Notes under the pieces: generated by a model
Seen by the model: the letters and a program-made list of their open reading frames with translations, nothing else
Databases searched by the model: none
What the model was told of the DNA's origin: nothing
Position numbers and translations under genes: made by a program
Shown: positions 41 through 21,069 of the stretch, piece by piece
How positions within the stretch are numbered: the stretch's first letter is position 1
How the letters are laid out: the number at the start of each line of letters is the position of its first letter
Source: Actinomycetota bacterium
Lineage (GTDB): Bacteria; Actinomycetota; Acidimicrobiia; Acidimicrobiales; Ilumatobacteraceae
Assembly (NCBI GenBank): GCA_017856115.1
Contig: JAFMFM010000019.1
Location: 1-32,860, forward strand
Reading direction: 5' to 3'
Length of the DNA stretch: 32,860 nucleotides

Positions 41-1003
41 TTAGAAGGTTTCTTTGGGGCGCGTGGCCGAGTTTTCGAGCCGTGCCACCTTCGTGATGGC
101 ACGACGCATCTGACGCACACCATAGCGGGCCCCCGTGCGACGTTGCGCTTCGCGGGCCACGCTTACTGCGCGTTCGAACGCGCGGCGGTAGTTCCCGAGC
201 ATGCGGGCTTCCATGTCGCTCAGCAAGAGAGGCTCCACGCTCGGAGCCCAGTCGCGACGCGGGAAATCGAACGCCTCGTAGTCGGACGCGTAGGTGGCCA
301 TCAGGCGGTTGGCGGTGTGGATGTCGCACACCCGCTCCACGCGCACCCCCAAGCCCTCGTTGAGTCGCTCCGGGACGATGGGCTTTCCGGAACGTGCGGT
401 GAGCACCCGGGCCAGCGCGTCGATTTCGCCCGGCTGGTCGACGCGCACCAGGGTGTCGTAGTCGATCACATCGGGGCGTGCCAGGTTGGTCTGGGGAAGG
501 AAATGGTGGTCGGTCATGAAGACGTCGGCCTTCTCGCCGAGCACCTTGGCAAAATGCGCGAAGGATGCAGCGAGATCGACGCGTCCGTCGGTGCGCACGT
601 CGTGGGCCAGTTCGATGAGGGTCTTGGTGCGCCTGTGTGCCCGCATGAAGATTCGGTTCTCCCAGGCCGAGTATGCGCGGGAGATCGGGTCGCGCACACT
701 GGTTACCCGCAGCCAGTCGGGTGAAGTGAGCATGTGGCGTTTGTCCCGCGCGGAGAAGTCGGCCAACGTCGACAAGCCGTTCACCTGCGGATGATGAATG
801 GTCTGCGCACGTGACACGTGCATGACGGCCAGTCGATCGACCACGTCGGAATTCCGCGTTCCTTCCGCGGTGGCCAGCATCATCTTGATGGTGGTGCACG
901 CCGCCTTCGGGGTCGGCGTATACAGAACCCGCATCCGAGGGGCAACGAGTACCAGCGGTGCGATGGAGTGGAGTGCGGCGTCGTTGCTCTTGCTTCTTTT
1001 CAC
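41..1003 (-). CDS. Sulfotransferase family 2-like protein, paralogue 1
   Basis: A 320-residue protein, last of three tandem sulfotransferase paralogues. The N-terminal segment YTPTPKAACTTIK (about residues 28-40) matches the 5'-phosphosulfate-binding loop of Sulfotransfer_2 enzymes, which transfer sulfate from PAPS to carbohydrate or similar acceptors. The segment VRDPISRAYSAWENR (about 103-117) matches the 3'-phosphate-binding motif with its conserved Arg and Ser. No signal peptide or membrane helix is evident, so cytoplasmic action is likely. It starts with GTG and overlaps the stop of paralogue 2 by 4 bases (GTGA), so the two are probably translationally coupled. Its place downstream of cysDNC implies that PAPS is supplied by the same transcript. 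The acceptor cannot be read from sequence. The C-terminus is basic (RRTGARYGVRQMRRA), a feature kept in all three copies. Confidence 0.85.
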   Translation of the reverse strand: MKRSKSNDAALHSIAPLVLVAPRMRVLYTPTPKAACTTIKMMLATAEGTRNSDVVDRLAVMHVSRAQTIHHPQVNGLSTLADFSARDKRHMLTSPDWLRVTSVRDPISRAYSAWENRIFMRAHRRTKTLIELAHDVRTDGRVDLAASFAHFAKVLGEKADVFMTDHHFLPQTNLARPDVIDYDTLVRVDQPGEIDALARVLTARSGKPIVPERLNEGLGVRVERVCDIHTANRLMATYASDYEAFDFPRRDWAPSVEPLLLSDMEARMLGNYRRAFERAVSVAREAQRRTGARYGVRQMRRAITKVARLENSATRPKETF

Positions 1004-1971
1004 CAGTGAATTCCGCGGGGGGTGTTGTACATACGTCCAAAAGTAATTCGTCGCAGGAAGGCCTTGCGAATTTGGCGAACTCCGAATCGCGCCGACATCT
1101 TTGACTGTGCAGCCCGTGACACACTTGTTACACGTTCGACGGATTGTCGCACCAGTGTGACGAGTTGCGTTTCTGAAGCACTCAGCACGTACGGCTCGAC
1201 GCTTGGTGCGAATGCGCGACGCTCGAAGCCGAACGCGTCGTAGTCGGACCGATACACCGACATCAGACGAGCGGCGGTGGCTGCATCACATGCGCGATCC
1301 AGTGGCACTCCGATGCTTTCGTTGTGTCGCTGCGGTTGGATGTCCTTCCCCGAACGTTCACGGAACACCGCGGCGATCGAGTCGACCCCGCCCGGCTCGT
1401 CCACCCGCACGAGAAGGTCGTACCGCACGGCATCGGTTCGTACCACCTGGGATTGCGGCACGAAGTGGTGGTCGCGCATGAAGGCCTGGGGCTGCTGCTC
1501 GAGCGCCTCGGAGAATCGGGCGAAACTCGCCGTCATGTCGATGCATCCGTCGCGCAGCACGTCGGGCGCCAGTTCGAAGCCGCCGTCGGTTCGTCCGGGA
1601 GCGCGCATGAAGATGCGATTTTCCCACGCCGAGTACGAACGAGCAACCGGGTCGCGCAGTGCGGCCAAACGAATCCACTCCGGCGACTCGAGGATCTCCT
1701 CCACCTGGTGCGGGGGAAGTTCGTTCAGTTTCTGCAGTCCGCTCACGTGGCGGTTGTGGATGGTTTGACTGCGGTGCAGGTTGGCGGCCAAAAGACGCGG
1801 AATGACGTCGGTTCGAAGCGACCCTTCGGCTTCCGCCAGCATCCATTTGATGGTGGTGCAGGCCACCTTGGTGGTGGGGGTGTACAGCACCTTCAAGCCC
1901 GGGGCAACCAGGGTTGATCGGCCGATGTGTCGAACAGCGGGAGTGGATCGGCCGACGGCGTGCACGGTCAT
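1000..1971 (-). CDS. Sulfotransferase family 2-like protein, paralogue 2
   Basis: A 323-residue protein, colinear with its two neighbours with almost no gaps. The PAPS 5'-phosphosulfate loop reads YTPTTKVACTTIK and the 3'-phosphate motif reads LRDPVARSYSAWENR. Both catalytic landmarks are intact, so this is not a decaying copy. The N-terminus differs from the other copies (MTVHAVGRSTPAVRH) and the mid-region acceptor-binding part is also divergent, which suggests a different acceptor or site specificity. The ATG start lies 6 bases after the stop of paralogue 3, and its stop overlaps the GTG start of paralogue 1. The C-terminus again ends in a basic helix (MSARFGVRQIRKAFLRR). Membership of the PAPS-dependent family is clear; the substrate is unknown. 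Confidence 0.85.
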   Translation of the reverse strand: MTVHAVGRSTPAVRHIGRSTLVAPGLKVLYTPTTKVACTTIKWMLAEAEGSLRTDVIPRLLAANLHRSQTIHNRHVSGLQKLNELPPHQVEEILESPEWIRLAALRDPVARSYSAWENRIFMRAPGRTDGGFELAPDVLRDGCIDMTASFARFSEALEQQPQAFMRDHHFVPQSQVVRTDAVRYDLLVRVDEPGGVDSIAAVFRERSGKDIQPQRHNESIGVPLDRACDAATAARLMSVYRSDYDAFGFERRAFAPSVEPYVLSASETQLVTLVRQSVERVTSVSRAAQSKMSARFGVRQIRKAFLRRITFGRMYNTPRGIHW

Positions 1972-1977
1972 CGGGGC

Positions 1978-2940
1978 TCAGTGATCCAACACGCGGTAGT
2001 CGCGAAAGGCACGACCGCCGGTGGCCCGACGCATGACGGCCTTTCGAATCTGGCGGAAGCCATAGCGTGCGCCCGCCTGTTTGGCCGACGCTTGCGACAC
2101 GCTGAGCAAACGTTCCATCACGCCACGCAACTGATACACGAGTTGCGTCTCGGCGCTGCTCAGCAGGTAGGGCTCGACGCTTGGGGCGTAGTCCCGCTTC
2201 TCGAATCCGAATGCTTCGTAGTCCATGAAGTAGGTGGCCATGAGTCGGTTGGCGGTGTGCACGTCGCACAACTTTGTGAGGTCCACCTTCATGCCCTCGT
2301 TCAGTCGCGATGCGGTGATGGTCTTTCCCGATCGCTCGCTGATGAGGTTCGACAAGCGGTCCATGTCGTTCTTTTTGTCCACGCGAATGAGCATGTCGTA
2401 GTTGATGACGTCGGTTCGCACGATGTGCGCCTGGGGTAGGAAATGTTGGTCGATGGTGAATGCGTCGGTGTGTTCACCGAGCATTCGGGCGAACAACGCA
2501 AAGCTGGCGGCGAGGTCGATCCGGCCATCCACCAATACGTCCTGGGAGAGTTCGATGGCGCGGGCGGTTTCGCCCGGAGCGCGGCGGAAAATGCGGTTCT
2601 CCCACGCCGAGTACGACCGTGCAACAGGGTCGCGCAACGCCGCGACCCGTACCCAGTCGGAGGATCGGAAGATGTTGTCGATCTCCCGCTTGGGTAGGTC
2701 CACCAGTCGGGGTAGCCCGTTGATCACCGGGTCATGGATGGTTTGTGGTCGTGACACGCTCGGATTGGTGATCTGGTCGATCAGGTCGGTCCGATGCGAC
2801 TGCTCGGCGGTGGCCAACATCAACTTGATGGTGCTGCACGCCACCTTCGGTGTCGGCGTGTACATGATCTTGAGGCTCGGTGCCACCAACGTGAGACCAC
2901 CGATGGCCAAGAGCGACGTGTCGGAGGGGAAAACGTTCAT
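1978..2940 (-). CDS. Sulfotransferase family 2-like protein, paralogue 3
   Basis: A 320-residue protein, first of the three sulfotransferases in transcription order, starting 3 bases after the cysC stop. The 5'-phosphosulfate loop YTPTPKVACSTIK (residues 27-39, Lys39 being the expected catalytic/binding Lys) and the 3'-phosphate motif LRDPVARSYSAWENR are intact. A shared block DRLSNLISERSGK and the pattern CDVHTANRLMATY occur at matching positions in paralogue 1, so these two look closer to each other than to paralogue 2. No export signal is visible. The tight spacing to cysC (APS kinase, the enzyme that makes PAPS) is the strongest contextual evidence that the sulfate donor is PAPS. The acceptor is not deducible. 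Confidence 0.86.
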   Translation of the reverse strand: MNVFPSDTSLLAIGGLTLVAPSLKIMYTPTPKVACSTIKLMLATAEQSHRTDLIDQITNPSVSRPQTIHDPVINGLPRLVDLPKREIDNIFRSSDWVRVAALRDPVARSYSAWENRIFRRAPGETARAIELSQDVLVDGRIDLAASFALFARMLGEHTDAFTIDQHFLPQAHIVRTDVINYDMLIRVDKKNDMDRLSNLISERSGKTITASRLNEGMKVDLTKLCDVHTANRLMATYFMDYEAFGFEKRDYAPSVEPYLLSSAETQLVYQLRGVMERLLSVSQASAKQAGARYGFRQIRKAVMRRATGGRAFRDYRVLDH

Positions 2941-2943
2941 CGT

Positions 2944-3591
2944 TCAGTGATCGGCCGTGCCGAGCACACCAAGTTGCCCCAGGTGTTCCAGCACGCGACG
3001 CACCGATTCTGTCACGCTCTCACCGTCTCGGGCGACCACGACATCGGGCGAGGTTGGCGCCTCGTACGGCGCATCCACACCACTCAGGCCGCTCATCTCG
3101 CCACGACGAACCTTGCCGTACATTCCCTTTGTATCGCGACGCTCGCATTCGGCGAGCGAGGCGGCCACGTGCACCTCGACGAAGTCGAGCCCCGCACCCT
3201 CGTGGGCCACCCGTACGCGGGCGCGGTCGGCGGCAAACGGGCTGATGATCGGCACGATTGCGACGACGCCGGCATCCGCGAACAGTCGTGCCACCTCGCC
3301 GACACGCCGCACGTTCTCGGTGCGGTCGGCGTCAGTGAACCCGAGATTGGCATTGAGTCCGTGACGCAGGTTGTCGGCATCCAGCACGTACCCGAGTACC
3401 GAGCGCTGCAGCAACTCGCGCGAGAGGGCGTCGGCGATGGTCGACTTTCCCGATCCCGACAAACCGGTGAGCCACACCGTGGCGCCGTGCACGTGGTGGT
3501 GGGCCCAGCGTTGTTCGCGCGACACGGCAGGTTCGTGCCACACGGCGGCGTTGCCGGGCCCAGTGGCCCCGGGTGATGACGCGGTGCTCAT
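2944..3591 (-). CDS. cysC: Adenylyl-sulfate (APS) kinase
   Basis: A 215-residue protein that phosphorylates APS to PAPS. The P-loop GLSGSGKST is clear, followed by the family segments LDADNLRHGLNANLGF (the APS-binding DxDNxRxGLxxxLGF signature) and APYEAPTSPDVVV near the C-terminus. An N-terminal extension of about 45 residues (MSTASSPGATG..., with WHEPAVSREQR just before the core) is normal for bacterial CysC. The ATG overlaps the cysN stop (ATGA at 3588-3591), so the upstream extension of the open frame to 3942 is discarded. In many bacteria CysC feeds assimilatory sulfate reduction; here it is followed immediately by three sulfotransferases, so its PAPS probably serves sulfation. Confidence 0.93.
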   Translation of the reverse strand: MSTASSPGATGPGNAAVWHEPAVSREQRWAHHHVHGATVWLTGLSGSGKSTIADALSRELLQRSVLGYVLDADNLRHGLNANLGFTDADRTENVRRVGEVARLFADAGVVAIVPIISPFAADRARVRVAHEGAGLDFVEVHVAASLAECERRDTKGMYGKVRRGEMSGLSGVDAPYEAPTSPDVVVARDGESVTESVRRVLEHLGQLGVLGTADH

Positions 3592-4844
3592 GTGCGAGGC
3601 GACAACAGCATGCCCGCGGCACACGTTTGACCGGTGTGCTCGTCCACCAGGATGAACGATCCGGTGGTGCGGTTGGCGTGGTAATCGTCGTAGAACAAGG
3701 GCGCGGTGGTGTGTATCTCCACCCGTCCGATCTCGTTGAGTGCCAGTGACCTGACGTCGGCCTCGCGATGCAGGGTGGAGATGTTGAGCCGGTACAGCAC
3801 GCTGGTTACCTTTGCGCGAGCCGACTTGGTGGTGTGTTTGATCGCGTAGATCTTGTCCGGTTGGAGGGGTGCGGCATCGTCCATCCAGCACAACATGGCC
3901 TCGAGCGACTGTGCCTGGCGCGGGCGGTTGTTGGGGCGACAAATCATGTCGCCGCGGGCAATGGAGAGGTCGTCGGCCAGAAGCAGCGTTGCGGAGTGTC
4001 CGGGTTCGGCCTGCACGAGCGGGCCGTTTGGTGAGTCGATTCCCGTGATGGTGGTGGTGAGTCCTGACGGCAACACCATCACGTCATCGCCCACTCGAAA
4101 CACGCCACCGGCGACACGCCCGGCGTATCCGCGGTAGTCGTGGTGCTCGGCGCGCTGCGGACGAATCACGTACTGAACGGGGAATCGCGCATCCACCCGG
4201 TTGTCGTCGCTCGCGGTATACACGTTTTCCAAGTGGTGCAGGAGCGTCGGCCCCTCGAACCACGTGAGGTTGGGTGAACGGCTCACCACGTTGTCGCCCT
4301 GCAGGGCGCTGATGGGCAGGAACGTGACGTCTCGCAACGACAGGCGCGAGGCGAACTCCTCGAACTCGTCGCGAATGCGGTGGAACACCTCGGGCGACCA
4401 GTCGACGAGGTCCATCTTGTTCACACAGATCACCAAGTGGGGTACACCGAGGAGCGAGGCGAGCAAACTGTGTCGTCGGGTCTGTTCGACGATCCCGGTT
4501 CGCGCATCCACCAGCACGATCGCAAGGTCAACGTTGGAAGCACCGGTGATCATGTTTCTTGTGTATTGGATGTGCCCCGGGCAGTCGGCGATGATGAAAC
4601 TTCGCTTTGGTGTGGCGAAATACCGGTACGCCACGTCGATGGTGATTCCTTGTTCGCGCTCGGCTCGCAAGCCGTCGGTGAGCAAGGAGAGATCCACGTA
4701 GTCGGTACCACGACGTTTGCTCACGTTCTCGATGTGCTCCAACTGATCCTCGAAAATGCTCTTGGAGTCGTAGAGCAGTCGGCCGATGAGCGTCGACTTT
4801 CCGTCGTCGACAGACCCCACCGTGGCGAAACGAAGGCGTTCCAT
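3588..4844 (-). CDS. cysN: Sulfate adenylyltransferase subunit 1 (GTPase)
   Basis: A 418-residue EF-Tu-like GTPase that powers ATP-sulfurylase. The G1 motif GSVDDGKST lies at residues 10-18, the G3 motif DCPGHIQYTRNM follows, and the G4 motif NKMDLVDW is present; domains 2/3 cover the C-terminal half. It is slightly short compared with E. coli CysN (about 475 aa) because it begins right at the GTPase core. The ATG at 4844 was chosen because it sits directly before the conserved LRFATVGSVDDGKS strand; the longer open frame upstream is an antisense-like shadow of cysD. It ends with a 4-base overlap with cysC and lies 29 bases after cysD. There is no CysC fusion; APS kinase is a separate gene. 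Confidence 0.93.
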   Translation of the reverse strand: MERLRFATVGSVDDGKSTLIGRLLYDSKSIFEDQLEHIENVSKRRGTDYVDLSLLTDGLRAEREQGITIDVAYRYFATPKRSFIIADCPGHIQYTRNMITGASNVDLAIVLVDARTGIVEQTRRHSLLASLLGVPHLVICVNKMDLVDWSPEVFHRIRDEFEEFASRLSLRDVTFLPISALQGDNVVSRSPNLTWFEGPTLLHHLENVYTASDDNRVDARFPVQYVIRPQRAEHHDYRGYAGRVAGGVFRVGDDVMVLPSGLTTTITGIDSPNGPLVQAEPGHSATLLLADDLSIARGDMICRPNNRPRQAQSLEAMLCWMDDAAPLQPDKIYAIKHTTKSARAKVTSVLYRLNISTLHREADVRSLALNEIGRVEIHTTAPLFYDDYHANRTTGSFILVDEHTGQTCAAGMLLSPRT

Positions 4845-4873
4845 CAGACGTGTCTCGGCAATCCGCGGATCAT

Positions 4874-5770
4874 CTAGAAGTAGCCCTGCTTCTTGCGGTC
4901 TTCCATGCCCGCTTCGCTGATGCGGTCGTCGGCGCGGGTGGCGCCGCGTTCGGTGACCCGGGCAGCGGCGGTTTCGGCGATGATCTGCTCGAGCGTGGTG
5001 GCCGTCGACTCGATGGCGGCGGTGCACGTGGCGTCGCCCACCGTGCGGAATCGAACCAGTTGTTCGCTCACGGGTTCGTCGGCATCCGGGGAGAGGAACG
5101 GCGACTCGGCCATCCACATGCCGTCACGGCGGAACACTCGGCGTCGGTGCGCAAAGTAGATGCTCGGGAGGGCAATGTCGTACTCCTCGACGAATCGCCA
5201 AATGTCCAGTTCGGTCCAGTTCGACAACGGGAAGATCCTGAAGTGCTCACCCGGTTTGTGGCGACCGTTGTAGATGCCCCACAGCTCGGGGCGCTGTGTC
5301 TTGGGATCCCACTGTCCGAAGGAGTCGCGAAACGAATACACCCGCTCCTTGGCACGGGCACGTTCCTCGTCCCGACGGGCTCCGCCGAACACGGCGTCGA
5401 ACTTGTGTTCAGCAATGGAGTCGAGCAGGGTGACCGTTTGCAGGGGGTTGCGGCTGGCACGAGGTCCGGTGACGTCCTGGATGCGGCCGGCGTCGATCGA
5501 CGCCTGCACGGACCCCACGAGGAGCTGTACATCCAACTCGGCCACGGTGCGGTCCCGGAACTCGATCACCTCGGGGAAATTGTGTCCGGTATCGATGTGC
5601 ATCACCGGAAAGGGCACCCGAGCCGGGGCGAAGGCCCGAACGGCCAGGTGGAGCATGACCACGGAGTCCTTCCCACCCGAGAACAGCATGACGGGGCGCT
5701 CGAACTCGGCTGCCACCTCGCGGATGATGGTGACCGACTCGTCGACCAGACCGCGCAACGCCGATTTCAC
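4874..5770 (-). CDS. cysD: Sulfate adenylyltransferase subunit 2
   Basis: A 298-residue N-type ATP pyrophosphatase that adenylates sulfate to APS together with CysN. The PP-loop PVMLFSGGKDSVVMLHLA is intact, as are HIDTGHNFPEV, GGARRDEERARAKERV, and WTELDIWRFVEEY with LPSIYFAH. The GTG at 5770 is preferred because it places the conserved ESVTIIREVAAEFERP about 10 residues from the N-terminus and gives the family length (about 300 aa); the frame stays open to 5926 but the extra residues look non-coding. This is the first gene of the six-gene sulfation operon. No cysH, sulfite reductase or sulfate transporter accompanies it, unlike assimilatory clusters. Confidence 0.92.
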   Translation of the reverse strand: MKSALRGLVDESVTIIREVAAEFERPVMLFSGGKDSVVMLHLAVRAFAPARVPFPVMHIDTGHNFPEVIEFRDRTVAELDVQLLVGSVQASIDAGRIQDVTGPRASRNPLQTVTLLDSIAEHKFDAVFGGARRDEERARAKERVYSFRDSFGQWDPKTQRPELWGIYNGRHKPGEHFRIFPLSNWTELDIWRFVEEYDIALPSIYFAHRRRVFRRDGMWMAESPFLSPDADEPVSEQLVRFRTVGDATCTAAIESTATTLEQIIAETAAARVTERGATRADDRISEAGMEDRKKQGYF

Positions 5771-10802: not shown

Positions 10803-11570
10803 ATGATCAAGCTCTCCGTCGCTTCGTCCAATGACGACATCCTCCGGGTCTTGCACGAGGTTGCCGACGCCACTTACGAGGTGCTTGCCAGCAACACCGA
10901 CTGGGGTTTGTCGGGCAAGCGGGCCACGCAATACTCGGTGGACCTGCGAGCCGATGCAGCGGCGCTCGAGGTGTTGCACGGTGCGGGATGTGCGGTGCTT
11001 TCTGAAGAGAGTGGACGCACGGGGGACTGGAACGACGACGCCATCATCGTGGTGATGGATCCACTCGACGGCTCGACCAACGCCAGTCGGCGCGTGCCCT
11101 GGTATGCAACCGCCCTGGCTGCCATCGACTCGAACGGTCATCGAGCATCGCTCGTAGCAAACCAGTTCACGAACACCGATCGCTGGACGGCAACCACCGG
11201 TGGCGGCGCCTTTCATAACGGCGTTCGAATTGCGCCGTCATCCTGTACTCGGCTGAGCGACGCCGTCGTCGGTGTGTCGGGATTACCCAAGAGGCACCCG
11301 GGCTGGGCGCAGTTTCGCGCGCTCGGGGCGGCGGCACTGGACATTTGCCTCGTTGCCCAGGGAACGCTCGATGGTTGGGTGGATCTCTCATCGCACGGCG
11401 CATGGGATTATCTGGCGAGTGTGCACATTTGTGCCGAGGCCGGCGCCGTGGTGGGTGAGATCCTCGACCGGCCGTTGATCGTCACCGAGCACGTCGAACG
11501 CCGTTCACCAGTGGTCGCTGCAACACCCCAACTGTTCGACCCGCTGCGTGCAGTGAGAACGGATTCCTGA
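10803..11570 (+). CDS. Inositol monophosphatase-family phosphatase
   Basis: A 255-residue Mg2+-dependent phosphatase of the IMPase/FBPase/CysQ superfamily. Metal-binding motifs are present: LSEES around residue 65, DPLDGSTN around residue 88 and GAWDYLAS near residue 200. The DPLDGSTN form is that of inositol-phosphate phosphatases rather than the DPLDGTKEF form of CysQ. The ATG is preceded by TGAGGAAT and follows the permease stop by 9 bases, so it belongs to the importer operon. Its role there is unclear; it might dephosphorylate the imported compound or a product of it. The substrate could also be another sugar phosphate or PAP; the family alone does not decide. Confidence 0.85.
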   Translation: MIKLSVASSNDDILRVLHEVADATYEVLASNTDWGLSGKRATQYSVDLRADAAALEVLHGAGCAVLSEESGRTGDWNDDAIIVVMDPLDGSTNASRRVPWYATALAAIDSNGHRASLVANQFTNTDRWTATTGGGAFHNGVRIAPSSCTRLSDAVVGVSGLPKRHPGWAQFRALGAAALDICLVAQGTLDGWVDLSSHGAWDYLASVHICAEAGAVVGEILDRPLIVTEHVERRSPVVAATPQLFDPLRAVRTDS

Positions 11571-11571
11571 C

Positions 11572-12240
11572 GTGGCGCGTGAACTCCGCGGTGCCCACGT
11601 GGTGGTGGTCGGGGCATCCGGTGTCTTGGGCGCCGCCGTCGCCCGGAATCTGACAAATGCTGGTGCGCGCGTGTCGGCCATCGTGCGCGATCACAGTCGG
11701 CTGGACGGGGCGAGTGTGGCGCAGTACGCGTTGGCCGACGTTACCGACCATGCGGCGTTGCGGACGGCCTTTGCGTCGGTTGCGCCGTTCGACGGCGTGG
11801 TGAATGCAACCGGTGTCGTGGCCTTCGGCAACGTTGCGGATCTGGACGACACCACGCTGGCAACGCTGTTCGCGGTGAACGCAATCGCACCGATCGTTAT
11901 GTTGCGGGAAGGTGCCGCGCACCTCAGCGACGGGGGATTCTTCGTGAATATCTCCGGGGTGGTTGCATCGCAGCCCGTGGCAGGCATGGCTGCATACAGT
12001 GCGTCGAAGGCTGCTGCGTGGGCCGCGATGACTGCCGCGGGTCGGGAATTGCGTCGTCGCCGTATCGACGTGATCGATGCACGACCGCCGCATATCGAAA
12101 CGGGTCTCGCAACACGACCGCTAGCTGGTGTGGCCCCCAAGATGCCCGAAGGTTTGGCGCCTGACGCAGTTGCTGCTCGTATCGTTGCCGCCGTGGTGGC
12201 CGGCGAGCGCGATCTGCCGACTGAAGCATTCGCGTCGTAG
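11572..12240 (+). CDS. Short-chain dehydrogenase/reductase (SDR)
   Basis: A 222-residue NAD(P)-dependent Rossmann enzyme. The cofactor loop is GASGVLGAAVA near residue 15, the NAG-equivalent is NATGVV, the catalytic Ser is in NISGVV and the active-site Tyr/Lys are in YSASK. It is shorter than many SDRs (about 250) but carries all catalytic landmarks. The GTG start is one base after the phosphatase stop, making it the last gene of the transporter operon. The substrate is unknown; the operon context suggests metabolism of whatever the importer takes up. Confidence 0.82.
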   Translation: MARELRGAHVVVVGASGVLGAAVARNLTNAGARVSAIVRDHSRLDGASVAQYALADVTDHAALRTAFASVAPFDGVVNATGVVAFGNVADLDDTTLATLFAVNAIAPIVMLREGAAHLSDGGFFVNISGVVASQPVAGMAAYSASKAAAWAAMTAAGRELRRRRIDVIDARPPHIETGLATRPLAGVAPKMPEGLAPDAVAARIVAAVVAGERDLPTEAFAS

Positions 12241-12325
12241 ACCCTTGCGCCCTGCCGTTGCGCCCCGCGGCGTCGGCATGGTTCGCACATCACCGATCCG
12301 CAGAAGTATTCACTATTCTGTTCAT

Positions 12326-14569
12326 ATGACCCCATCTCGCAGCACCCGCCGCACTCGGCGCATCCACCACGTTCTCGCCCTTACCGGACTCTTGATGCTC
12401 GCGGCGCCCGTGGCGTCGGCAGCGACCGTGAAGAACGGTGCCAAGTGCACCAAGGTGGGGCAGCTCTTCACCGTAAAGAAGAAGAGGAAGTCGACCGACT
12501 TCATCTGCGTGAAGGAAGGCAAGCGCCGCGTATGGCGTGTACGCGCAGCTGTCGGTCCTGCTGGAGCGGGGGCTGCAGGCACCGGGTCGGCCAAACCTGG
12601 CGATGGTCCGACTGGCGCAGCGTCGGCATCGGACTGCGACAAGGCAGCGTACAAAGCCACCAGTACTGGCGTGAACAACATCGTCGGCTGCGATTACACC
12701 ACCACGTATTCGGAACTGGCGGTTACCTCCGGCACTTCGGTGTCAAATGGACAATCCGCCGTGGGATTCATGAGCATGCCCGGAGTAGCGAACGAATCGG
12801 GCGGAGCGCTGTTCTTTAACCACCCGGCCGGCATGGCCACCGACGGAACGCGACTGGCGATCGCCGACCGCAACAACAACCGAGTGCTGATTTGGAATTC
12901 TGCCCCGACGGCCAATACCGCACCGAATTTGGTACTCGGTCAGCCGAATTTCTCCACCAACAATTCTGGGTCGGCACTCAACGAAATGAATTGGCCGAGT
13001 GATCTATCGATTTCGGCATCAGGAATGCTCATGGTCGCCGACTCGAGCAACCACCGAATTCTCATTTGGCGAACCTTCCCAACGACAAACGGTCAAGCCG
13101 CCGACTTGTCGCTCGATCTCGGTGACGGCTCGTGGCCATGGGGCGTATGGACCGACGGCACCAAGATGATGGTCTCACGTACCGAAGCCGGGGACGTGAA
13201 GGTGTGGAACTCCATTCCCGCGGCGTCGGGTCAAACCTCGGCCTCGTTCACGATTGATCCGGACATCATGGGAACGCCTCGTCAGATCAGCTCCGACGGC
13301 ACGAGGGTGATCATCGGAGACGAGAACTCGCGTTCACCGCTCGGTAACCGCGGCTCGCATGTGTGGAATAGTTTCCCCACGTCGGCTGCCTCCAACCCCG
13401 ACTACTTCATGTTGTTTGGTCGCGACAAGAATGCCGGCTGGTACACCGGTCACATCGATTCAACAGGCGTATATCTGTTGCAGCGCGATCTCGAGATTCT
13501 TCGTACGTTCCCCACGTCGAACCCCGCTAGTCCCGAACTGACGGTGACGCCACCCGACGTAGGGCTTCAGGGCGGTGACGGTGGTGACGTCGTGAAGATT
13601 GGAAATCGTCTCTATGTTCTTGAATACAACGCCAGTCGAATCGCTGCGTGGAATGCCGTGCCGACCTCCGCGAGTCAAGCGGCGGATTTCTACGTAGGTT
13701 CATCGGGTCCTGCCGACAACTCCAATCGTGCCGCGTTCATGATTACCAATCCAGTGATGGCGTCGGATGGTACTTCTCTGGCGATCAACACCGACTTCGA
13801 GCGAAGGGTGTACGTATGGAAGAAGGTGCCGGCCGACAATAATGCCAAGCCCGATCACTCTTTCATCGTGCCGTTCCAACCGTGGGATTCGGTCGCAGCA
13901 ACCTTCAAGGGCACCAGGATCTACGGAGTCGTCGGGGAGGGCAAACTACATCTCTGGTCCGGTGGAATTCCCCTGAGCAAGGCCTCGCTACCAACCACGA
14001 CGCTGGACACCAATATCGGTGGCGTAACCATGTCGGGTCTCACCGCTATCGCGGCGGACAACAACTACATCTATCTCGCCGACAAACAATCGGCCAAGGT
14101 CTACGTATTCAACCAGATTCCAACGTCGACTAGTGCCCCAGTGTTCACCCTGCCTGGCTGCTCGGCTGCAACGCAGTTGCGATCGGACGGCAACTACTTG
14201 GTGCTCACATGCATCGGCAATCCGGGAACGTACGTGTGGACGGTTGGAGCGCTAGCAGACAACCAGTCGGGCACCACGGTGACGGGAACGCAATTCAACC
14301 TGCCGATGGGTGGACTCCCAGTGAACGGTGGACTATTCGTTGCCGACACCGGATTTGATCGCGTCGTGTGGTGGTCGACCATGTCTGCTGCACTTGCAGG
14401 TGGCGCACCCACGGCGGTGCTCGGCGCATCGACAGGGGCAACCAAGGCTAATTCGGGTTTGGGCATCAATAAATTCCGAATGCCTAGATCGCTTATGGTC
14501 ACACACGGGTACCTGTGGGTAGGTGAGCAGAAGTTCGGCAACCGCATCCTGCGTTTCAAACTGAACTGA
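12326..14569 (+). CDS. Secreted NHL/beta-propeller repeat protein
   Basis: A 747-residue exported protein. The N-terminus has a basic stretch (RRTRRIHH), a hydrophobic core and a likely cleavage after APVASA (residue 32). Next is a short Lys/Cys-rich module, VKNGAKCTKVGQLFTVKKKR to about residue 70, a module I recognise from secreted actinobacterial proteins, then a Gly/Ala/Pro linker. From about residue 170 to the end run repeats of about 50 residues built on the pattern (D)GTRLAIADRNNNRVLIWN followed by PT...A..VLGQPNF; this is the look of an NHL-type propeller. No catalytic residues stand out; binding or scaffolding at the cell surface is likely. The ATG at 12326 is chosen because it begins the signal peptide; the frame is open from 12128. 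A -10-like TATTCT sits at 12314-12319. Confidence 0.75.
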   Translation: MTPSRSTRRTRRIHHVLALTGLLMLAAPVASAATVKNGAKCTKVGQLFTVKKKRKSTDFICVKEGKRRVWRVRAAVGPAGAGAAGTGSAKPGDGPTGAASASDCDKAAYKATSTGVNNIVGCDYTTTYSELAVTSGTSVSNGQSAVGFMSMPGVANESGGALFFNHPAGMATDGTRLAIADRNNNRVLIWNSAPTANTAPNLVLGQPNFSTNNSGSALNEMNWPSDLSISASGMLMVADSSNHRILIWRTFPTTNGQAADLSLDLGDGSWPWGVWTDGTKMMVSRTEAGDVKVWNSIPAASGQTSASFTIDPDIMGTPRQISSDGTRVIIGDENSRSPLGNRGSHVWNSFPTSAASNPDYFMLFGRDKNAGWYTGHIDSTGVYLLQRDLEILRTFPTSNPASPELTVTPPDVGLQGGDGGDVVKIGNRLYVLEYNASRIAAWNAVPTSASQAADFYVGSSGPADNSNRAAFMITNPVMASDGTSLAINTDFERRVYVWKKVPADNNAKPDHSFIVPFQPWDSVAATFKGTRIYGVVGEGKLHLWSGGIPLSKASLPTTTLDTNIGGVTMSGLTAIAADNNYIYLADKQSAKVYVFNQIPTSTSAPVFTLPGCSAATQLRSDGNYLVLTCIGNPGTYVWTVGALADNQSGTTVTGTQFNLPMGGLPVNGGLFVADTGFDRVVWWSTMSAALAGGAPTAVLGASTGATKANSGLGINKFRMPRSLMVTHGYLWVGEQKFGNRILRFKLN

Positions 14570-14793: not shown

Positions 14794-15789
14794 TCAGTTG
14801 TCGCTCACGCACTCAAGCACAGCTCGTGGACCTTCGACTTTCCATCCCAAGGTTCCAGTCACCGTACTTTCACCGTCCTGGTAACTGCACGGTGCACCGA
14901 CGATGATTCCACCGGCTGGACCCGCTGGACCTTGTGCCCCGGCTGGACCCTGTGCCCCGGCTGGACCTTGTGCCCCGGCTGGACCTTGTGCCCCGGCTGG
15001 ACCCTGTGTGCCCGCGGGACCAACTGCCCCCTGTGATCCTGCAGGTCCGATGGGCCCAGTTGGGCCTCGGGCGCCTGTCGCGCCTGCTGGGCCTTGTGCT
15101 CCGGTTGCTCCCGCTGTGCCTGTCGCGCCTGCTGGGCCTTGTGCTCCGGTTGCTCCCGGCGTTCCGGTCGGCCCTGTGTTGCCCGCGGCTCCCGTCGCCC
15201 CGCGTACGCCAGCAGCGCTTAATCCGTTCGCTGATGTCAGCGTCGAGCCGTCGGCAAACTTAATACCCCGCGGTACCGCGAGATAGCCGGTGTCGCCCGA
15301 CTCACCGATCGTAATGTCTTGCGAGCCCAACACTGAGCGAATTCCCGTGGTAGTGAGCTGGACATTACCCAAACGAAGCGTTTCGGCCCCGTCAATCAAA
15401 AGGACACCATCTTCGACGGAGATTCCCGCCTGAATCCCAGTACCGACATCTTCAATGAAGATCGTTCCAGGTCCAAGTTCAAGGCTCTTCCAACGGAACG
15501 TTGAGGTTCCCAGCGTGTACAAATTGTCCGCTGATGGAACAAGGTCCCCGGACAGGCCGTCGAGTGGCGTGCACACATCAGTGCGTGTCTCATCGCCTTC
15601 GTCATCGTCGAGATCGCTGAGTACGTTGAGAGTTTGTCCTGGTGGGCAGTAACCGAGCACCTGAAGTTGTTCTGCGAGAGCCTCATCATCCTGACGCACG
15701 GCGTCAATCAAGAAGAGACCTCCGAGCAAGATGACGAGCAGAAGGGATATTGCGCTAATTGAATTGAATGTGCGTTGTGTTGTTTTCAT
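14794..15789 (-). CDS. Membrane-anchored collagen-like protein
   Basis: A 331-residue protein. The N-terminus ([15 protein letters not shown]) leads into a single hydrophobic anchor at about residues 12-29, so the rest is probably outside the cell. Residues 30-190 are non-repetitive and include a tail-fibre-like stretch ([17 protein letters not shown]) and a predicted beta-rich region. Residues 194-294 are about 33 uninterrupted Gly-X-Y triplets rich in GPAGAQ and GATGAQ, which should form a collagen triple helix. The C-terminal 37 residues contain Cys301 and Cys327. ATG at 15789 is chosen over the TTG at 15840 because it begins just before the anchor; no strong Shine-Dalgarno is seen. It runs opposite to its neighbours, has lower G+C at its 5' end and lies between two att-like copies, so it looks acquired. 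Confidence 0.85.
14924..15013 (-). repeat. Tandem 18-bp repeat encoding GPAGAQ
   Basis: Five consecutive 18-base units (GCTGGACCTTGTGCCCCG with C/T variants; the last unit is divergent) encode the C-terminal Gly-X-Y block of the collagen-like protein. Near-identity at the DNA level indicates recent expansion and potential length variation by slippage. Confidence 0.9.
15073..15162 (-). repeat. Tandem 45-bp repeat in the collagen-like gene
   Basis: Two adjacent 45-base units, 15073-15117 and 15118-15162, identical at 43 of 45 positions, encode 15 residues (five Gly-X-Y triplets) each. A second, longer duplication step within the same gene. Confidence 0.85.
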
Positions 15790-16147
15790 GCGAGCAGTCA
15801 ATGTCGCTAGCAACTTTGAAGTCAACGACGGATGTCCCAATGACGCTCAGCATGCGTACTCTTCGCACGGTATGTTTCCACAGGAGCCTTGGATGTGCCA
15901 CATCAGACTCACACGAAAATCCAACTACCGCCGGAAGTCCATCAACTGCAAGAAGTGATGCCGCCAGAGCGACGTCTCGCCGAGCGAAGACGACTAGTCA
16001 GCCAGCGAGCGAGTCGCCACTGTGGCCACATTGAACCTTTGAGGTCGTGCCGGCACAAGTTTGAGTGAGCTGGGCTAGGTCGGGGGTTCAAGTCCCTCAA
16101 CGCCCGCGACGGGTTTGTTGCGCCTCGGCTGCCACCGCGCAGGTGTA
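15790..16147. other. Intergenic region with att-like remnant, otherwise empty
   Basis: This 358-base stretch has no convincing gene on either strand; short open frames here show no recognisable domain. It holds the start region of the collagen-like gene at its left, the tRNA-Val 3' copy at 16078-16105, and nothing that resembles an integrase or its remnant. Confidence 0.6.
16078..16105 (+). repeat. att-like copy 2: displaced tRNA-Val 3' end
   Basis: GGTCGGGGGTTC(A)AGTCCC continuing to ACGCCC repeats bases 14706-14733 of tRNA-Val with one change (G to A in the T-loop). No D-arm, anticodon arm or 5' acceptor strand precedes it, so it is a tRNA fragment and not a gene. Best read as an attachment-site remnant. 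Confidence 0.75.
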
Positions 16148-17093: not shown

Positions 17094-18602
17094 CTACGAC
17101 GCTGCAGCGCCGGACGTGGTTGCGTCGCGTCGCTCGCGCGTTGACGCGGGGTTCGTGAAGTGCATGACGCCGTCGTCCACCCGACCTTCACGGAACATTT
17201 TTTTGTCCTTGTCGTAGTTCTGCGGATTGATCCACGGCTCGCGGTCACCCTGACTTGGCATGAGATGCATTACGCGTTGCATGTAACCAGACGAAAAACC
17301 GTCGATCCAGGGGCGTCGCGGCATGTCGTGTTCGCCGGGGCGCAGCCGGGGGGTGCATTGGCGAGTGCCGGTATCCCGCATGTGGTTGAGCAACCGACAC
17401 ACGTAGGTGCAGGTGAGGTCTGCACGCAGCGTCCATGACGCGTTGATGTAACCGAAACTTGTTGCCAAGTTCGGTACGTCGGAGTACGCCATTCCCTTGT
17501 AGGTGCGCGTGGCGGAAAAGTCCACCGGAGTGCCGTCGACGGTGAACTCTGCTTCTCCCAGCGTGACCAGTTGCAAACCGGTCGCGGTCACGATGACGTC
17601 GGCGGCAAGGTGTTGCCCGGAACGAAGGAGGATTCCCGTCTCGGTGAATGTTTCGATCGTGTCCGTAGCGACCGACGCACGGCCCGATCGAATGGCAGCG
17701 AAGAGGTCGGAGTTTGGGACCAGGCATAGCCGTTGATCCCACGGGTTGTACGAGGGGGTGAAATGTTTCTGGACGGGGTAGCGGCCTCCGAGTTCCAACT
17801 GAATTCCGCCCAGCAGCAGGTTCTTGATCTGCTCGGGTTTGGTGCGGGTTCGTTTATACACCAGCTGTTGGCGCCAGGTGTTCTTGGCACGAGTGATGTT
17901 GTATGCCACCTTTGCCGGCAGCACCTTGCGGAGAAAGTTGGCGAGAGCGTCACGATCGGGTCGCGAGACCATGTACGTGGGGGAGCGTTGCAACATGGTG
18001 ACGTGTGACGCGGTGCCTGCCATCGCTGGCACCAACGTGACCGCAGTGGCACCCGAGCCGATTACCACGACCCGCTTGTCGGTGTAGTCGAGGTCGTCGG
18101 GCCAGTCCTGCGGGTGAACGATGCGACCCGTGAATCGTTCCCGTCCCACGAATTCGGGCAGGTACCCGGCTTTGTATGAGTAGTACCCCGCGCACATGAA
18201 GAGGTAGTTGCACTCGAAAACTCCCCGTGAACCGTTCGTCCGAAGGGTGTGCACGGTCCACGACGCGGTTGGTGTCGACCACTCGGCGCGCACCACTCGC
18301 TCGCCGAAGCGCATGTGGCGCTCCAGATCGTGTTCGGCCACGGTTTCGCGCAGGTAGTCCATGATTGAGGATCCGTCAGCAATCGACTTTTCGGCCTTCC
18401 ACGGTTTGAACTCGTAGCCGAGGGTGTGCATGTCGCTATCGGAGCGAATGCCCGGGTACTTGAACAGGTCCCACGTGCCTCCGATGTTCTCTCGACCTTC
18501 GAGAATCACGAAACTACGGTCGGGTGACTTCTCCTGGAGATGGACACCCGCGCCGATGCCGGAGATGCCTGCACCTACCACTACGACATCGAACCGCTCC
18601 AT
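17094..18602 (-). CDS. Flavin-dependent Baeyer-Villiger monooxygenase, EthA-like
   Basis: A 502-residue FAD/NADPH enzyme. The FAD-binding motif is GAGISGIGAG at the N-terminus; the BVMO fingerprint FxGxxxHxxxW is FTGRIVHPQDW near residue 165; the NADPH Rossmann motif is GSGATAVTLVPAMA. The stretch HVTMLQRSPTYMVSRP closely resembles mycobacterial EthA, which oxidises ketones and activates ethionamide, and has a similar length (489). BVMOs insert oxygen beside a carbonyl or oxidise sulfur atoms. The ATG at 18602 is chosen since it begins the FAD fold; the frame extends to 18704 without family similarity. It is divergent from the TSUP exporter with a shared dyad operator in the 71-base gap, which may tie it to sulfur compounds. 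Confidence 0.9.
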   Translation of the reverse strand: MERFDVVVVGAGISGIGAGVHLQEKSPDRSFVILEGRENIGGTWDLFKYPGIRSDSDMHTLGYEFKPWKAEKSIADGSSIMDYLRETVAEHDLERHMRFGERVVRAEWSTPTASWTVHTLRTNGSRGVFECNYLFMCAGYYSYKAGYLPEFVGRERFTGRIVHPQDWPDDLDYTDKRVVVIGSGATAVTLVPAMAGTASHVTMLQRSPTYMVSRPDRDALANFLRKVLPAKVAYNITRAKNTWRQQLVYKRTRTKPEQIKNLLLGGIQLELGGRYPVQKHFTPSYNPWDQRLCLVPNSDLFAAIRSGRASVATDTIETFTETGILLRSGQHLAADVIVTATGLQLVTLGEAEFTVDGTPVDFSATRTYKGMAYSDVPNLATSFGYINASWTLRADLTCTYVCRLLNHMRDTGTRQCTPRLRPGEHDMPRRPWIDGFSSGYMQRVMHLMPSQGDREPWINPQNYDKDKKMFREGRVDDGVMHFTNPASTRERRDATTSGAAAS

Positions 18603-18633
18603 CGCCACGAACACTACAGAAGGCGCAAACGGC

Positions 18634-18649
18634 AAATGTCCGTACTTTT
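18634..18649. promoter_or_regulatory. Dyad operator, copy 1 (AAATGTCCGTACTTTT)
   Basis: Matches 21625-21640 at 15 of 16 bases; one arm carries a single mismatch to the perfect dyad AAATGT-CCGT-ACATTT. It lies between the divergent BVMO (start 18602) and TSUP exporter (start 18674) genes. Likely a binding site of a shared transcription factor; the protein is not identified. Confidence 0.6.
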
Positions 18650-18673
18650 TGCAAATCGCAGTACTGTTGTTTC

Positions 18674-19495
18674 GTGAGCGCACTGGTGGTTTTGTTTGCC
18701 GCAATGCTCACCTCGGGGGTCGGCACGCTCGGAGGACTCGGCGGCGCCATCATGTTGGTGCCGTTACTGGTGCTCGGAGGGATGACCCCGGCGGAGGTTG
18801 CGCCACTCGGGTTGCTGTCGGTGGTCGTGGCATCATCGGCCGCCGCGCGACGACAGATGCAGGAACACACCACCAACCATCGGCTCGGAGTAGTAACGGA
18901 AACGGCATCGACGGCGGGAGCGGTTGCCGGGGCACTCGTCGCCGGGGCCATCTCGGAGCAGGCGCTCACCATCACGTTGGCAGTCGTGGCAATGCTCGCG
19001 GCAGTTGCGGGCGGACGAAGAAAAGGCATGCGCTGGCGTCCTGACGACGCTGCCCCGCAATCCGCGGTTGGGGAATGGATCGGGTCGATGAACGGCGCCT
19101 ACTCACTCGACGGAAAGGTCGTGCCTTACCGGGTTCGACGCATCGGTTCCGGATTGGCAGCGATGGTTGTATCGGGTGTGGTCACCGGAATCTCGGGTGT
19201 CGGCGGCGGGTTCATCAAGACTCCGGCGAGCAGCGAGATCATGCACGCACCGGTGAAGGTTGCGGCGAGCACCACGACATTTTCCATCGGCATTACCGCA
19301 GCGGCTGCCCTTCTGGTCAAGATCATGAACGGGAAGTTGGACGTATCGCTCGGTGCCGCCGTGGTAGTCGGCTCTTTCGTTGGGGGTCTCATTGGTTCGC
19401 GAGTGCAGGCACGAATGTCACCAGTGCGGGTGCGCAAATTCCTGTCGGTGTTGCTCATCGTGATTGCGGCGATCCTCGTGACACGGGTGGTCTAA
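18674..19495 (+). CDS. TSUP-family (TauE/SafE) sulfite/organosulfur exporter
   Basis: A 273-residue polytopic membrane protein of the TauE/SafE family, which move sulfite, sulfoacetate or related anions. The two family repeats begin with LTSGVGTLGGLGGAIMLVPL near the start and SGVVTGISGVGGGFIKTPA near residue 165; LGVVTETASTAGAVAGALVAG belongs to the first half. The GTG at 18674 is used because it begins the first helix directly, whereas upstream codons of the frame are antisense to the BVMO gene. It is followed after 2 bases by a DUF1634-like gene, its usual partner. In this locus an outlet for toxic sulfite is the natural reading, but uptake of a sulfur compound is also possible for TSUP proteins. 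Confidence 0.85.
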   Translation: MSALVVLFAAMLTSGVGTLGGLGGAIMLVPLLVLGGMTPAEVAPLGLLSVVVASSAAARRQMQEHTTNHRLGVVTETASTAGAVAGALVAGAISEQALTITLAVVAMLAAVAGGRRKGMRWRPDDAAPQSAVGEWIGSMNGAYSLDGKVVPYRVRRIGSGLAAMVVSGVVTGISGVGGGFIKTPASSEIMHAPVKVAASTTTFSIGITAAAALLVKIMNGKLDVSLGAAVVVGSFVGGLIGSRVQARMSPVRVRKFLSVLLIVIAAILVTRVV

Positions 19496-19497
19496 CG

Positions 19498-19788
19498 GTG
19501 GAATACGGACGAGTCGACCCGGGCCAACATGCCGCCGAAGAGCGGCTCGGAACGATGATTTCACGGGTGCTGGGTGTCGCCGCCGCGCTCGCGCTCGCTG
19601 CGTTGGCACTTCCGGGCGCCAACGTTGTGGCGTGGTTGGCCATCGGTACGGCCTTGGCGATTCCGATCGTTCGCGTGGCATGGCTCGTCGTGCGTTGGCG
19701 CGGCGTGCGTGACTACAGGTTCGTCCTTGCGGCCCTTGTCTTGCTGGTGCTCGTTGCAGCCGGTCCAGTCATCGCCTTTTTTTCGTAG
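19498..19788 (+). CDS. DUF1634-like small membrane protein
   Basis: A 96-residue protein with three hydrophobic segments (ISRVLGVAAALALAALALPG; VVAWLAIGTALAIPIVRVAW; FVLAALVLLVLVAAGPVIAF) separated by a basic turn VVRWRGVRDYR. The size, topology and IPIVRV...RDYRFVLAAL pattern fit DUF1634, which is commonly encoded right next to TSUP transporters. It starts with GTG two bases after the exporter stop. Its last 20 bases overlap the 3' end of the convergent GntR gene. Probably an accessory subunit; no biochemical function is known to me. Confidence 0.7.
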   Translation: MEYGRVDPGQHAAEERLGTMISRVLGVAAALALAALALPGANVVAWLAIGTALAIPIVRVAWLVVRWRGVRDYRFVLAALVLLVLVAAGPVIAFFS

Positions 19789-20527
19789 GACGTACTCCGA
19801 ATTCCGACGTTGCCTTGCTGTTCGACCATGTGGTGGTGAAGGTGTAAGCGTCGCCGCGCACCACCGTGGTACGCCACTCGAGCGGGCCGCGGTGTGTTTC
19901 GGTGTAGCGCGACACGACAAAAACGGGTTGACGTGGGCCGATTCCGAGCAGCCTTTGTTCCTCGGTGCTTGGTAGGGCGGGTCGTATGCGTTCCCAACCA
20001 CGCACCGGTCGCGCATCAGTGAGGCGTTCGAGCTCGGTGTACACAGCCGTGTACTCAAAATTCACTTCATATAGTGGCGCGGCGATTTTTTCGGGCAGCC
20101 ATATTTCATCCACGGCAAATGGCGTTCCATCTGCCCGTCGCAGGCGGCGTAGAAAGAAGAACTTGGTGGCAATGGCCAGTCCCATCTGTTCGGCAACCTC
20201 ACGGTCGCGAACCGAACGAAGCTCCAGTACGTCACTGCGTTGCACGTGTCCCTGGTCCTCGATCGAACGAAACAGGCTGTAGAGCGGGCCGACCCGCTGT
20301 TCCAATGAGAGGGGTTGGACGAAACTTCCTCGTCCCTTGTAGCGCGTCAAAACACCTTCGGTTTGAAGGTGACGAACGGCCTCGCGCGCGGTGTGTCGAC
20401 TCACCTTGTAACGCTGCATGAGTTCACGGTCGGTGGGGAAGCCCGACGTGAATTCGCCACGAGACATGCGGCGGCGCAGATCCGTAAGTACCTGCTCCCA
20501 CAGGGGAGTTTTTGGGTTACGTCGCAT
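19769..20527 (-). CDS. GntR-family transcriptional regulator, HutC/UTRA type
   Basis: A 252-residue regulator. The N-terminal winged helix spans about residues 8-75, with FPTDRELMQRYKVSRHTARE as the recognition region and RYKGRGSFV as the wing. The C-terminal UTRA effector domain covers about 95-235 (RRLRRADGTPFAVDEIWLPE; RYTETHRGPLEWRTTVVRGD), a chorismate-lyase-like fold that senses a small molecule. ATG at 20527 is preferred to the in-frame GTG at 20587 because two palindromes (20521-20535, 20551-20570) would otherwise lie inside the gene. It follows the YeeE/YedE genes on the same strand, 68 bases after their stop, and may be co-transcribed. The effector is unknown; a sulfur compound is an inference from context. 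Confidence 0.88.
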   Translation of the reverse strand: MRRNPKTPLWEQVLTDLRRRMSRGEFTSGFPTDRELMQRYKVSRHTAREAVRHLQTEGVLTRYKGRGSFVQPLSLEQRVGPLYSLFRSIEDQGHVQRSDVLELRSVRDREVAEQMGLAIATKFFFLRRLRRADGTPFAVDEIWLPEKIAAPLYEVNFEYTAVYTELERLTDARPVRGWERIRPALPSTEEQRLLGIGPRQPVFVVSRYTETHRGPLEWRTTVVRGDAYTFTTTWSNSKATSEFGVRPTKKRR

Positions 20528-20535
20528 AGTGCGAC
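20521..20535. promoter_or_regulatory. Palindrome GTCGCA-TAG-TGCGAC over the GntR start codon
   Basis: A perfect 6-bp inverted repeat with a 3-base spacer that covers the proposed ATG of the GntR gene. A candidate autoregulatory operator. Confidence 0.45.
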
Positions 20536-20550
20536 GCTTCTGTTTTGTTT

Positions 20551-20570
20551 GTCGCGCAACGTTGCGTGAC
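20551..20570. promoter_or_regulatory. Palindrome GTCGCGCAACGTTGCGTGAC upstream of GntR
   Basis: A 20-base inverted repeat with a perfect CGCAACGTTGCG core and one mismatched pair (G-T) outside it. Its centre is about 32 bases (three helical turns) from the centre of 20521-20535, and both start with GTCGC, so both could bind the same dimeric regulator. Confidence 0.45.
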
Positions 20571-20595
20571 GAAGTGCGGGGTGTCACTTCACGCG

Positions 20596-21069
20596 TCAGC
20601 GCGCGGCGACAGTTTCGCGGTGTTCGCCATCACCCGTCACTGCTGTACCGGTGGCGCGCGAGGTTTGCGCGTCGCGCAAGCCAAGGCCGATAAAGAGCCC
20701 GATGATGGTGATGATTGCAAGGCCAGCACCCGATGCCAGCATCACCAGCGCAGGTGCCGGGCAGGTGCCCGACAACGCCCAGCCGATGCCAAAGAGCGCA
20801 CCGCCAACCACGTTCTGGCGTTTGACGGGTGAGCGGGAGAGGCTGAGCGTGCCACCAAGCACGGTCTTGGCCCCATTGCGCTCAAGCAGGGCAAGCAGCG
20901 GTAATGAGACGCCGATTGCTCCACCCATGAGCAAGAACACGTCGAATTCCTTCAGTGAGAGCATGTCGTGGATGGTCTTGTACTCGTGAAGGTTGGCGGC
21001 CGCCAGAACGAAGCCGAAACCGGCGCCAAACAGCAGCCCGATGATCTTGTGTGATGTTGATGGTGTCAT
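20596..21069 (-). CDS. YeeE/YedE-family transporter, second half (PmpB-like)
   Basis: A 157-residue membrane protein with about four hydrophobic helices. It holds the motif GIGWALSGTCPAPALVMLASG with the conserved Cys of the YeeE/YedE (TsuA) family, which conducts thiosulfate or related sulfane sulfur through a Cys relay. NVVGGALFG precedes it. Full-length TsuA is one chain; here the function is split over two genes, as in PmpA/PmpB pairs linked to persulfide dioxygenase loci. The start is 16 bases after the first half. The C-terminal 20 residues are polar and Thr-rich. Likely forms a heterodimer with the upstream gene product. Confidence 0.85.
   Translation of the reverse strand: MTPSTSHKIIGLLFGAGFGFVLAAANLHEYKTIHDMLSLKEFDVFLLMGGAIGVSLPLLALLERNGAKTVLGGTLSLSRSPVKRQNVVGGALFGIGWALSGTCPAPALVMLASGAGLAIITIIGLFIGLGLRDAQTSRATGTAVTGDGEHRETVAAR

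Follow-up and report, generated by a model that had tools for sequence, protein, structure and literature searches.

What does a bacterium with a small genome do with activated sulfate when no genes for reducing it are detected? This question is raised by a six-gene locus in an actinobacterium of the family Ilumatobacteraceae (assembly GCA_017856115.1). We analyzed positions 1 to 32,860 of contig JAFMFM010000019.1, a stretch of 32,860 nucleotides referred to below as the window. The locus occupies bases 41-5770, where cysD, cysN, cysC and three sulfotransferase genes (ST1, ST2 and ST3) follow one another in that order on the minus strand. We conclude, with a probability of about 0.8, that this is a dedicated sulfation operon. 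The sulfate donor 3'-phosphoadenosine-5'-phosphosulfate (PAPS) would be made by the products of the first three genes and passed to an acceptor by the co-encoded sulfotransferases.

Sulfate activation genes and sulfotransferases in one locus

Each of the six gene products scores above the cut-off of its family. The small subunit of sulfate adenylyltransferase is encoded by cysD (4874-5770; TIGR02039, 437.9 vs. a cut-off of 396.6), the large GTPase subunit by cysN (3588-4844; TIGR02034, 547.6 vs. 336.1) and the PAPS-forming adenosine 5'-phosphosulfate (APS) kinase by cysC (2944-3591; TIGR00455, 217.8 vs. 138.7; Pfam APS_kinase, 199.5 bits), with the three NCBIfam scores coming from scans of longer open reading frames (ORFs). 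We placed the cysD start at the GTG codon at 5770, where the alignment of relatives begins; the ORF stays open upstream to 5926. The sulfotransferases are paralogues that fall into clades of the same names: ST1 (1978-2940), ST2 (1000-1971; 52% identical to ST1) and ST3 (41-1003; 50% identical to ST1). In a search with Sulfotransfer_2 (PF03567) they score 54.8, 45.3 and 61.1 bits, respectively, against a cut-off of 22, and none proved to belong to a P-loop family other than sulfotransferases. The tight packing claimed in the preliminary description was also borne out. From cysD to ST3 the intergenic distances are 29, -4, 3, 6 and -4 bases, the negative values being 4-base overlaps of cysC with cysN and of ST3 with ST2, and the six genes are probably read as a single transcript.

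The sulfotransferases retain the residues expected for donor binding. All 55 aligned relatives (set A2) match PF03567 at E <= 0.001 and match no other Pfam family. Twenty alignment columns are invariant in these 55 proteins. They include K32 and A34 of the 5' loop and R103, P105, R108 and S111 of the 3' loop, which from knowledge of the family we take to be the PAPS site, as well as histidines 69 and 166. This agrees with the earlier claim that both PAPS-binding motifs are intact. Below, g1 denotes the genus of the window, and g2, g4, g6, g23 and g25 denote the other genera of the family that carry these genes. A 3' loop pattern that requires the first arginine to be followed by D or E matches 50 of 60 rows; the misses are rows from g2, g25 and g23.

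A sequence search of the PDB with ST1 returned no sulfotransferase. We modeled ST1 with AlphaFold2 (mad7149a0ecb6; mean pLDDT 86.2). The model contains one long C-terminal helix (residues 262-306), and the stretch 262-310 has a median net charge of +8 in the 55 proteins. No 19-residue window in any of these proteins exceeds 1.5 on the Kyte-Doolittle scale. These features suggest cytosolic enzymes whose basic arm could engage an acceptor that is anionic or bound to the membrane.

No other use for PAPS came to light in the genome. It comprises 1,673,546 bases in 77 contigs and is estimated to be 95.2% complete and 0.1% contaminated. Its three PF03567 matches all lie inside this operon. The sole PF01507 match is CysD itself, and so no CysH (PAPS reductase) was found. 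NIR_SIR, the sulfite reductase family, had no match in the genome, and the same search was positive in 11 of 14 control genomes. No SulP importer was found either (9 of 14 controls positive). The model for the CysT sulfate permease was matched in all 13 g1 genomes, in none of them over its cut-off. The preliminary description had noted the lack of a PAPS reductase, a sulfite reductase and a sulfate importer in the window, and this holds genome-wide for CysH, NIR_SIR, SulP and CysT over cut-off, DASS and PiT carriers not having been searched for. A candidate sulfate ABC importer was set aside: the best of the 15 CysT-model matches in this genome is the ModB of a ModABC set, whose adjacent ModA is over its own TIGR01256 cut-off.

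Since neither CysH nor NIR_SIR was detected, sulfate reduction by this route should be impossible, and sulfation is the sole use of PAPS that we found. PAPS most likely serves sulfation alone in this genome. In the pathway we propose, CysD and CysN would form APS from sulfate and ATP, and CysC would phosphorylate APS to PAPS. ST1-ST3, acting in the cytosol, would then transfer the sulfuryl group of PAPS onto the hydroxyls of an acceptor that is itself synthesized in the cytoplasm.

Sulfotransferases release 3'-phosphoadenosine-5'-phosphate (PAP), a by-product that in mycobacteria is cleared by the phosphatase CysQ, according to an excerpted source (PMC3141025). The CysQ model (TIGR01331) gave four matches in the window genome, none over a cut-off that was also missed in 12 of 14 controls. 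One of the four adjoins the operon. The window encodes an inositol-monophosphatase-family phosphatase (10803-11570, plus strand; PF00459), which scores far below the CysQ cut-off. A gene of this family is found close to the operon in g1, g4 and g6, and in g4 it stands beside cysD and divergent from it. It is a possible, unproven candidate for the PAP phosphatase.

Conservation and paralogue history in the Ilumatobacteraceae

We surveyed the family and the phylum with a profile of 19 sulfotransferases of this subfamily (A1). The subfamily is present in 65 of 200 family genomes and in 6 of 27 genera. A phylum-wide draw with this narrow profile found it in 3 of 396 genomes, all from the same family. 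Carrier genomes measure 1.0-2.8 Mb. Within g1, 12 of 13 genomes have sulfotransferase genes, and in the thirteenth the contig ends inside cysC.

Relatives keep cysDNC beside the sulfotransferases, and a check of the refuting condition in the preliminary description, cysDNC linked to sulfite reductase with the sulfotransferases absent, did not refute the sulfation reading. The order cysD-cysN-cysC-ST-mogA occurs in three genera (g1, g4 and g6), and cysDNC-ST occurs in g2, where no mogA was detected. Among the rows listed, 37 genomes have cysD and a sulfotransferase gene on one contig, at a spacing of 1,990-2,141 bases. The two are on separate contigs in nine carriers from g1, g4 and g6 (G085, G086, G097, G155, G161, G177, G181, G182 and G198). 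Six of these nine (G085, G086, G097, G155, G177 and G198) have a minus-strand cysD less than 900 bases from the low-coordinate end of its contig, which is what breakage of a contig would produce. The fetched sulfotransferase genes of g25 and g23 are not adjacent to cysDNC, and in g2 an additional copy is found elsewhere in the genome (L048 and L063). Full-length CysN copies within g1 are 92-99% identical to that of the window, and near-complete CysC copies are 76-98% identical. The CysN proteins of g4 and g6 are 71-84% identical, with the operon order kept (a broken copy at locus L056 was left out). One record (L012) is titled as a Bifidobacterium breve metagenome-assembled genome, a label that looks wrong given the 74-94% identity between its operon proteins and those of the window.

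The association with sulfite reductase differs among genera. NIR_SIR was matched in 23 of the 65 carriers and not matched in 42. By genus, it was found in 0 of 12 carriers in g1 (and in 0 of all 13 g1 genomes), 1 of 19 in g4, 6 of 17 in g6, 10 of 11 in g2, 4 of 4 in g25 and 2 of 2 in g23. Because many of these genomes fall short of 90% completeness, an isolated absence carries little weight, and the genus-level pattern is what counts. PF01507 had one match in 9 of the 13 g1 genomes, two matches in 2 and none in 2. The locus had been described as combining donor synthesis and transfer steps for sulfation, and the protein families, the conserved order and the 42 carriers without NIR_SIR support that description. 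The word "dedicated" fits best in g1 and g4; in g2, g25 and g23 PAPS may also feed reduction.

The sulfotransferase protein tree, which was midpoint-rooted and carries a long-branch warning for g25 and g23, groups the rows by genus. The g1 sequences form one clade (support 96/93) that is split into ST1, ST2 and ST3. Fetched operons contain one sulfotransferase gene in g4 and g6 and two or three in tandem in g1, where ST3 is absent from several members. By this tree the three copies stem from one ancestral triplication in g1, followed by loss of ST3 in some members. The copies probably differ in the acceptor position they modify rather than in their chemistry.

One locus combines two paralogues. 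L015:446-1405 encodes a single intact sulfotransferase of 320 residues whose first third is ST1-like and whose remainder is ST3-like, with the switch falling close to the 3' PAPS loop, around base 300-360. Another locus of the same metagenome bin, L010, has separate ST1 and ST2 genes and the beginning of an ST3 gene. L015 differs from the ST1 of L010 by 12-20% of bases even where it is ST1-like, and it therefore belongs to another strain. We consider L015 a likely fusion by recombination between tandem copies; it may instead be an assembly join in an unseen strain. A more speculative proposal, which we regard as doubtful, is that the tandem array forms a recombining set in which gain, loss and fusion of copies close to the 3' PAPS loop would swap much of the acceptor half and keep the donor half. 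Under this proposal, planktonic Actinobacteria with small genomes would keep sulfate activation only for surface sulfate esters, and the sulfation pattern seen by phages or grazers would change.

The acceptor and competing explanations

Most annotated PF03567 proteins are carbohydrate sulfotransferases, and the long basic C-terminal helix could hold an anionic or membrane-bound acceptor. On these two grounds we favor a carbohydrate acceptor, most likely a precursor of a cell-envelope glycan or glycolipid. We give this assignment about even odds. An excerpted source states that PF03567 is defined mostly by putative chondroitin sulfotransferases and that family membership cannot settle substrates other than glycosaminoglycans (PMC11625862).

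We looked for the acceptor pathway among the neighboring genes. In the window, ST3 sits 40 bases from the contig edge. In a relative whose operon proteins are 95-100% identical (genome G140, locus L064), mogA follows the sulfotransferase genes on the same strand. On the other side of the operon lies a Bmp-type ABC transporter set, divergent from cysD. Around the operon and the stray sulfotransferase genes we recognized transporters, short-chain dehydrogenases, P450-like and methyltransferase-like enzymes, hisI, mogA and repeat proteins; several of these names were read by eye, and part of the neighboring genes were searched against a library. No glycosyltransferase or polysaccharide export gene, and no lipid or peptide-maturation gene, was recognized among the readable neighbors, the loci L049, L050 and L051 not being covered for the glycan genes. 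The gene picker used for neighborhoods favors high third-position G+C, and at these loci of lower G+C it overlooked cysD (L049) or the sulfotransferase genes (L050 and L051). In g2, a pentapeptide-repeat protein with a lipoprotein-like start, as judged by eye, is convergent with a sulfotransferase gene (L062:10812-12914).

Several observations weigh against our conclusion. The neighboring genes name no acceptor, and searches for SulP and CysT detected no importer for the sulfate. With 77 contigs and 95.2% completeness, a gene that seems to be missing may fall in a gap of the assembly. Two g1 genomes, G048 and G086, each have a second PF01507 match. The structural matches are weak. Foldseek searches with the ST1 model placed sulfotransferases in the top rows with a best E of 6e-3 and none below 1e-3. 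The best VIA-align row is a heparan sulfate 6-O-sulfotransferase (Z 8.1, rmsd 4.2, 177 aligned residues, 14% identity). Cytosolic sulfotransferases and the glycopeptide antibiotic sulfotransferase StaL (Z 7.4) score within 1 Z of this row, and the matches barely cover the region of ST1 after residue 249. The remaining points concern individual genes and genera and are taken up with the explanations they favor.

The close score of StaL bears on the nature of the acceptor. The sulfotransferases could act on a small secreted metabolite, a peptide or a protein, as StaL and RaxST do, instead of on an envelope glycan, and the lack of a recognized glycan gene beside the operon in the readable neighborhoods agrees with this. 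No biosynthetic or peptide-maturation gene was recognized nearby either, however, and the uniform match of the 55 proteins to PF03567 leans toward carbohydrates, even if the family does not fix the substrate. Conservation across a genus with small genomes would also favor a core component. We regard a secreted metabolite, peptide or protein as a possible but less probable acceptor than an envelope glycan or glycolipid precursor.

The operon could also be the front end of assimilatory sulfate reduction, with the sulfotransferases as side passengers. This would agree with the presence of NIR_SIR in 16 of the 17 carriers of g2, g25 and g23, which means that the operon is not restricted to sulfation across the family, and in part of g6. 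It is at odds with the window genome, where PF01507 matches nothing beyond CysD and NIR_SIR is missing, and with the retention of the operon in g1 and g4, whose carriers almost all lack NIR_SIR. We consider it very improbable as an account of the operon. Still less probable is that the genes are relics of sulfur metabolism, decaying as the genome is reduced. The small genomes, the missing ST3 in several g1 members and the fused ST1/ST3 gene of L015 could be read in this way. So could a sulfotransferase gene split over two frames in G189 and the cysN and cysD alignments at L056 (g4, 10960-13107), which are broken into overlapping frames and may reflect assembly errors or a decaying operon. Against decay, none of the 94 sulfotransferase matches listed, fragments among them, contains an internal stop, and the PAPS-site residues do not vary among the 55 proteins. 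Rough dN/dS values against genus relatives are low, at 0.05-0.24 for the sulfotransferases (11 comparisons) and 0.02-0.03 for CysN (3 comparisons), with dS near saturation in all comparisons but one. Sulfation by a maintained operon is the reading we prefer to either of these.

Related systems and other features of the window

Pairing a set of PAPS supply genes with specific sulfotransferases has precedents. The rhizobial NodPQ-NodH and Xanthomonas RaxPQ-RaxST systems are organized in this manner, with NodPQ and RaxPQ as the PAPS supply genes and the Nod factor and the RaxX peptide as the acceptors. The operon also resembles eukaryotic systems in that the chondroitin and heparan sulfate sulfotransferases belong to the same Pfam family, PF03567. 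Unlike those enzymes, the proteins described here lack a strongly hydrophobic, anchor-like stretch, have a long basic C-terminal helix and share very low identity with them. NodH differs from the operon's sulfotransferases in belonging to PF13469, according to the excerpt on sulfotransferase families (PMC11625862).

The mycobacterial system is similar in that ATP sulfurylase and APS kinase from cysDNC make PAPS for actinobacterial sulfotransferases (Stf0-Stf3); an excerpt of the source indicates that mycobacteria, by contrast, also run the reductive branch, from APS (PMC3141025). Stf0 is placed in PF00685 in the excerpted family survey (PMC11625862), and PF00685 had no match in the window genome in a search that was positive in only 2 of 14 controls. 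Mycobacteria carry out the same chemistry with different sulfotransferases, and the operon, with its sulfotransferases in PF03567, probably lies outside the Stf systems, as had been proposed.

The closest precedent we found is Pontimonas salivibrio CL-TW6. An excerpt of its 2018 genome report describes a 1.76 Mb genome with sulfate activation genes, several sulfotransferases and no PAPS or sulfite reductase, and the authors presume that these recently acquired genes serve cell-wall modification (PMC6106888). Both organisms are streamlined aquatic actinobacteria with sulfate activation and several sulfotransferases but no detected reductive genes, so this combination is already known. The likeness is one of genotype. 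Pontimonas belongs to the Microbacteriaceae and is said to have gained its genes recently, whereas here the operon is common to related genera of another family, the sulfotransferase tree follows the genera and the triplication is at the level of a genus. A literature search of openly licensed PMC papers, covering titles and the starts of abstracts, found no description of this operon in Ilumatobacteraceae. Measured against that literature, three features are new: a single operon conserved in another actinobacterial family, its occurrence in genomes that lack a detected sulfite reductase, and a triplication specific to one genus. More distant parallels include Marine Group IIb archaea, in which cysD, cysN and cysC are present and sulfotransferases are named, in the excerpted text, as one use of PAPS (PMC6864105). 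Viral contigs gave four distant partial matches to the sulfotransferases at 27-28% identity.

The retention of PAPS synthesis and sulfotransferases without a detected sulfite reductase suggests a sulfated product that is worth its cost. If the product is on the cell surface, these bacterioplankton would carry a coat of sulfate esters. Freshwater Actinobacteria of the acI group no longer have assimilatory sulfate reduction at all, according to an excerpted report (PMC5301498). Strains of the acIV lineage, which an excerpted source places near the Ilumatobacteraceae, have been cultured, and some have been revived from frozen stocks (PMC8353197). If they carry the operon, sulfation would be open to direct chemical testing.

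The window contains a second group of sulfur-related genes at 18524-28626. It includes a TauE-family exporter, two half-length TsuA/YeeE-like ORFs, a metallo-beta-lactamase-rhodanese protein, a fused ferredoxin-NrfD protein and a molybdopterin enzyme with its chaperone. The best NCBIfam model for the molybdopterin enzyme is thiosulfate reductase PhsA, below cut-off. We considered this block as a source of sulfate from reduced sulfur inside the cell and rejected it. The enzyme is full-length in only 2 of 13 g1 genomes, the other matches being weaker and partial, and its association with the operon is therefore not conserved. At 32800-32860 part of a tRNA-Gly-like gene was seen by eye on the minus strand, cut by the window end and not reported by ARAGORN. 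An ORF at 14794-15840 on the minus strand encodes collagen-like triple-helix repeats (PF01391) and adjoins a tRNA-Val gene.

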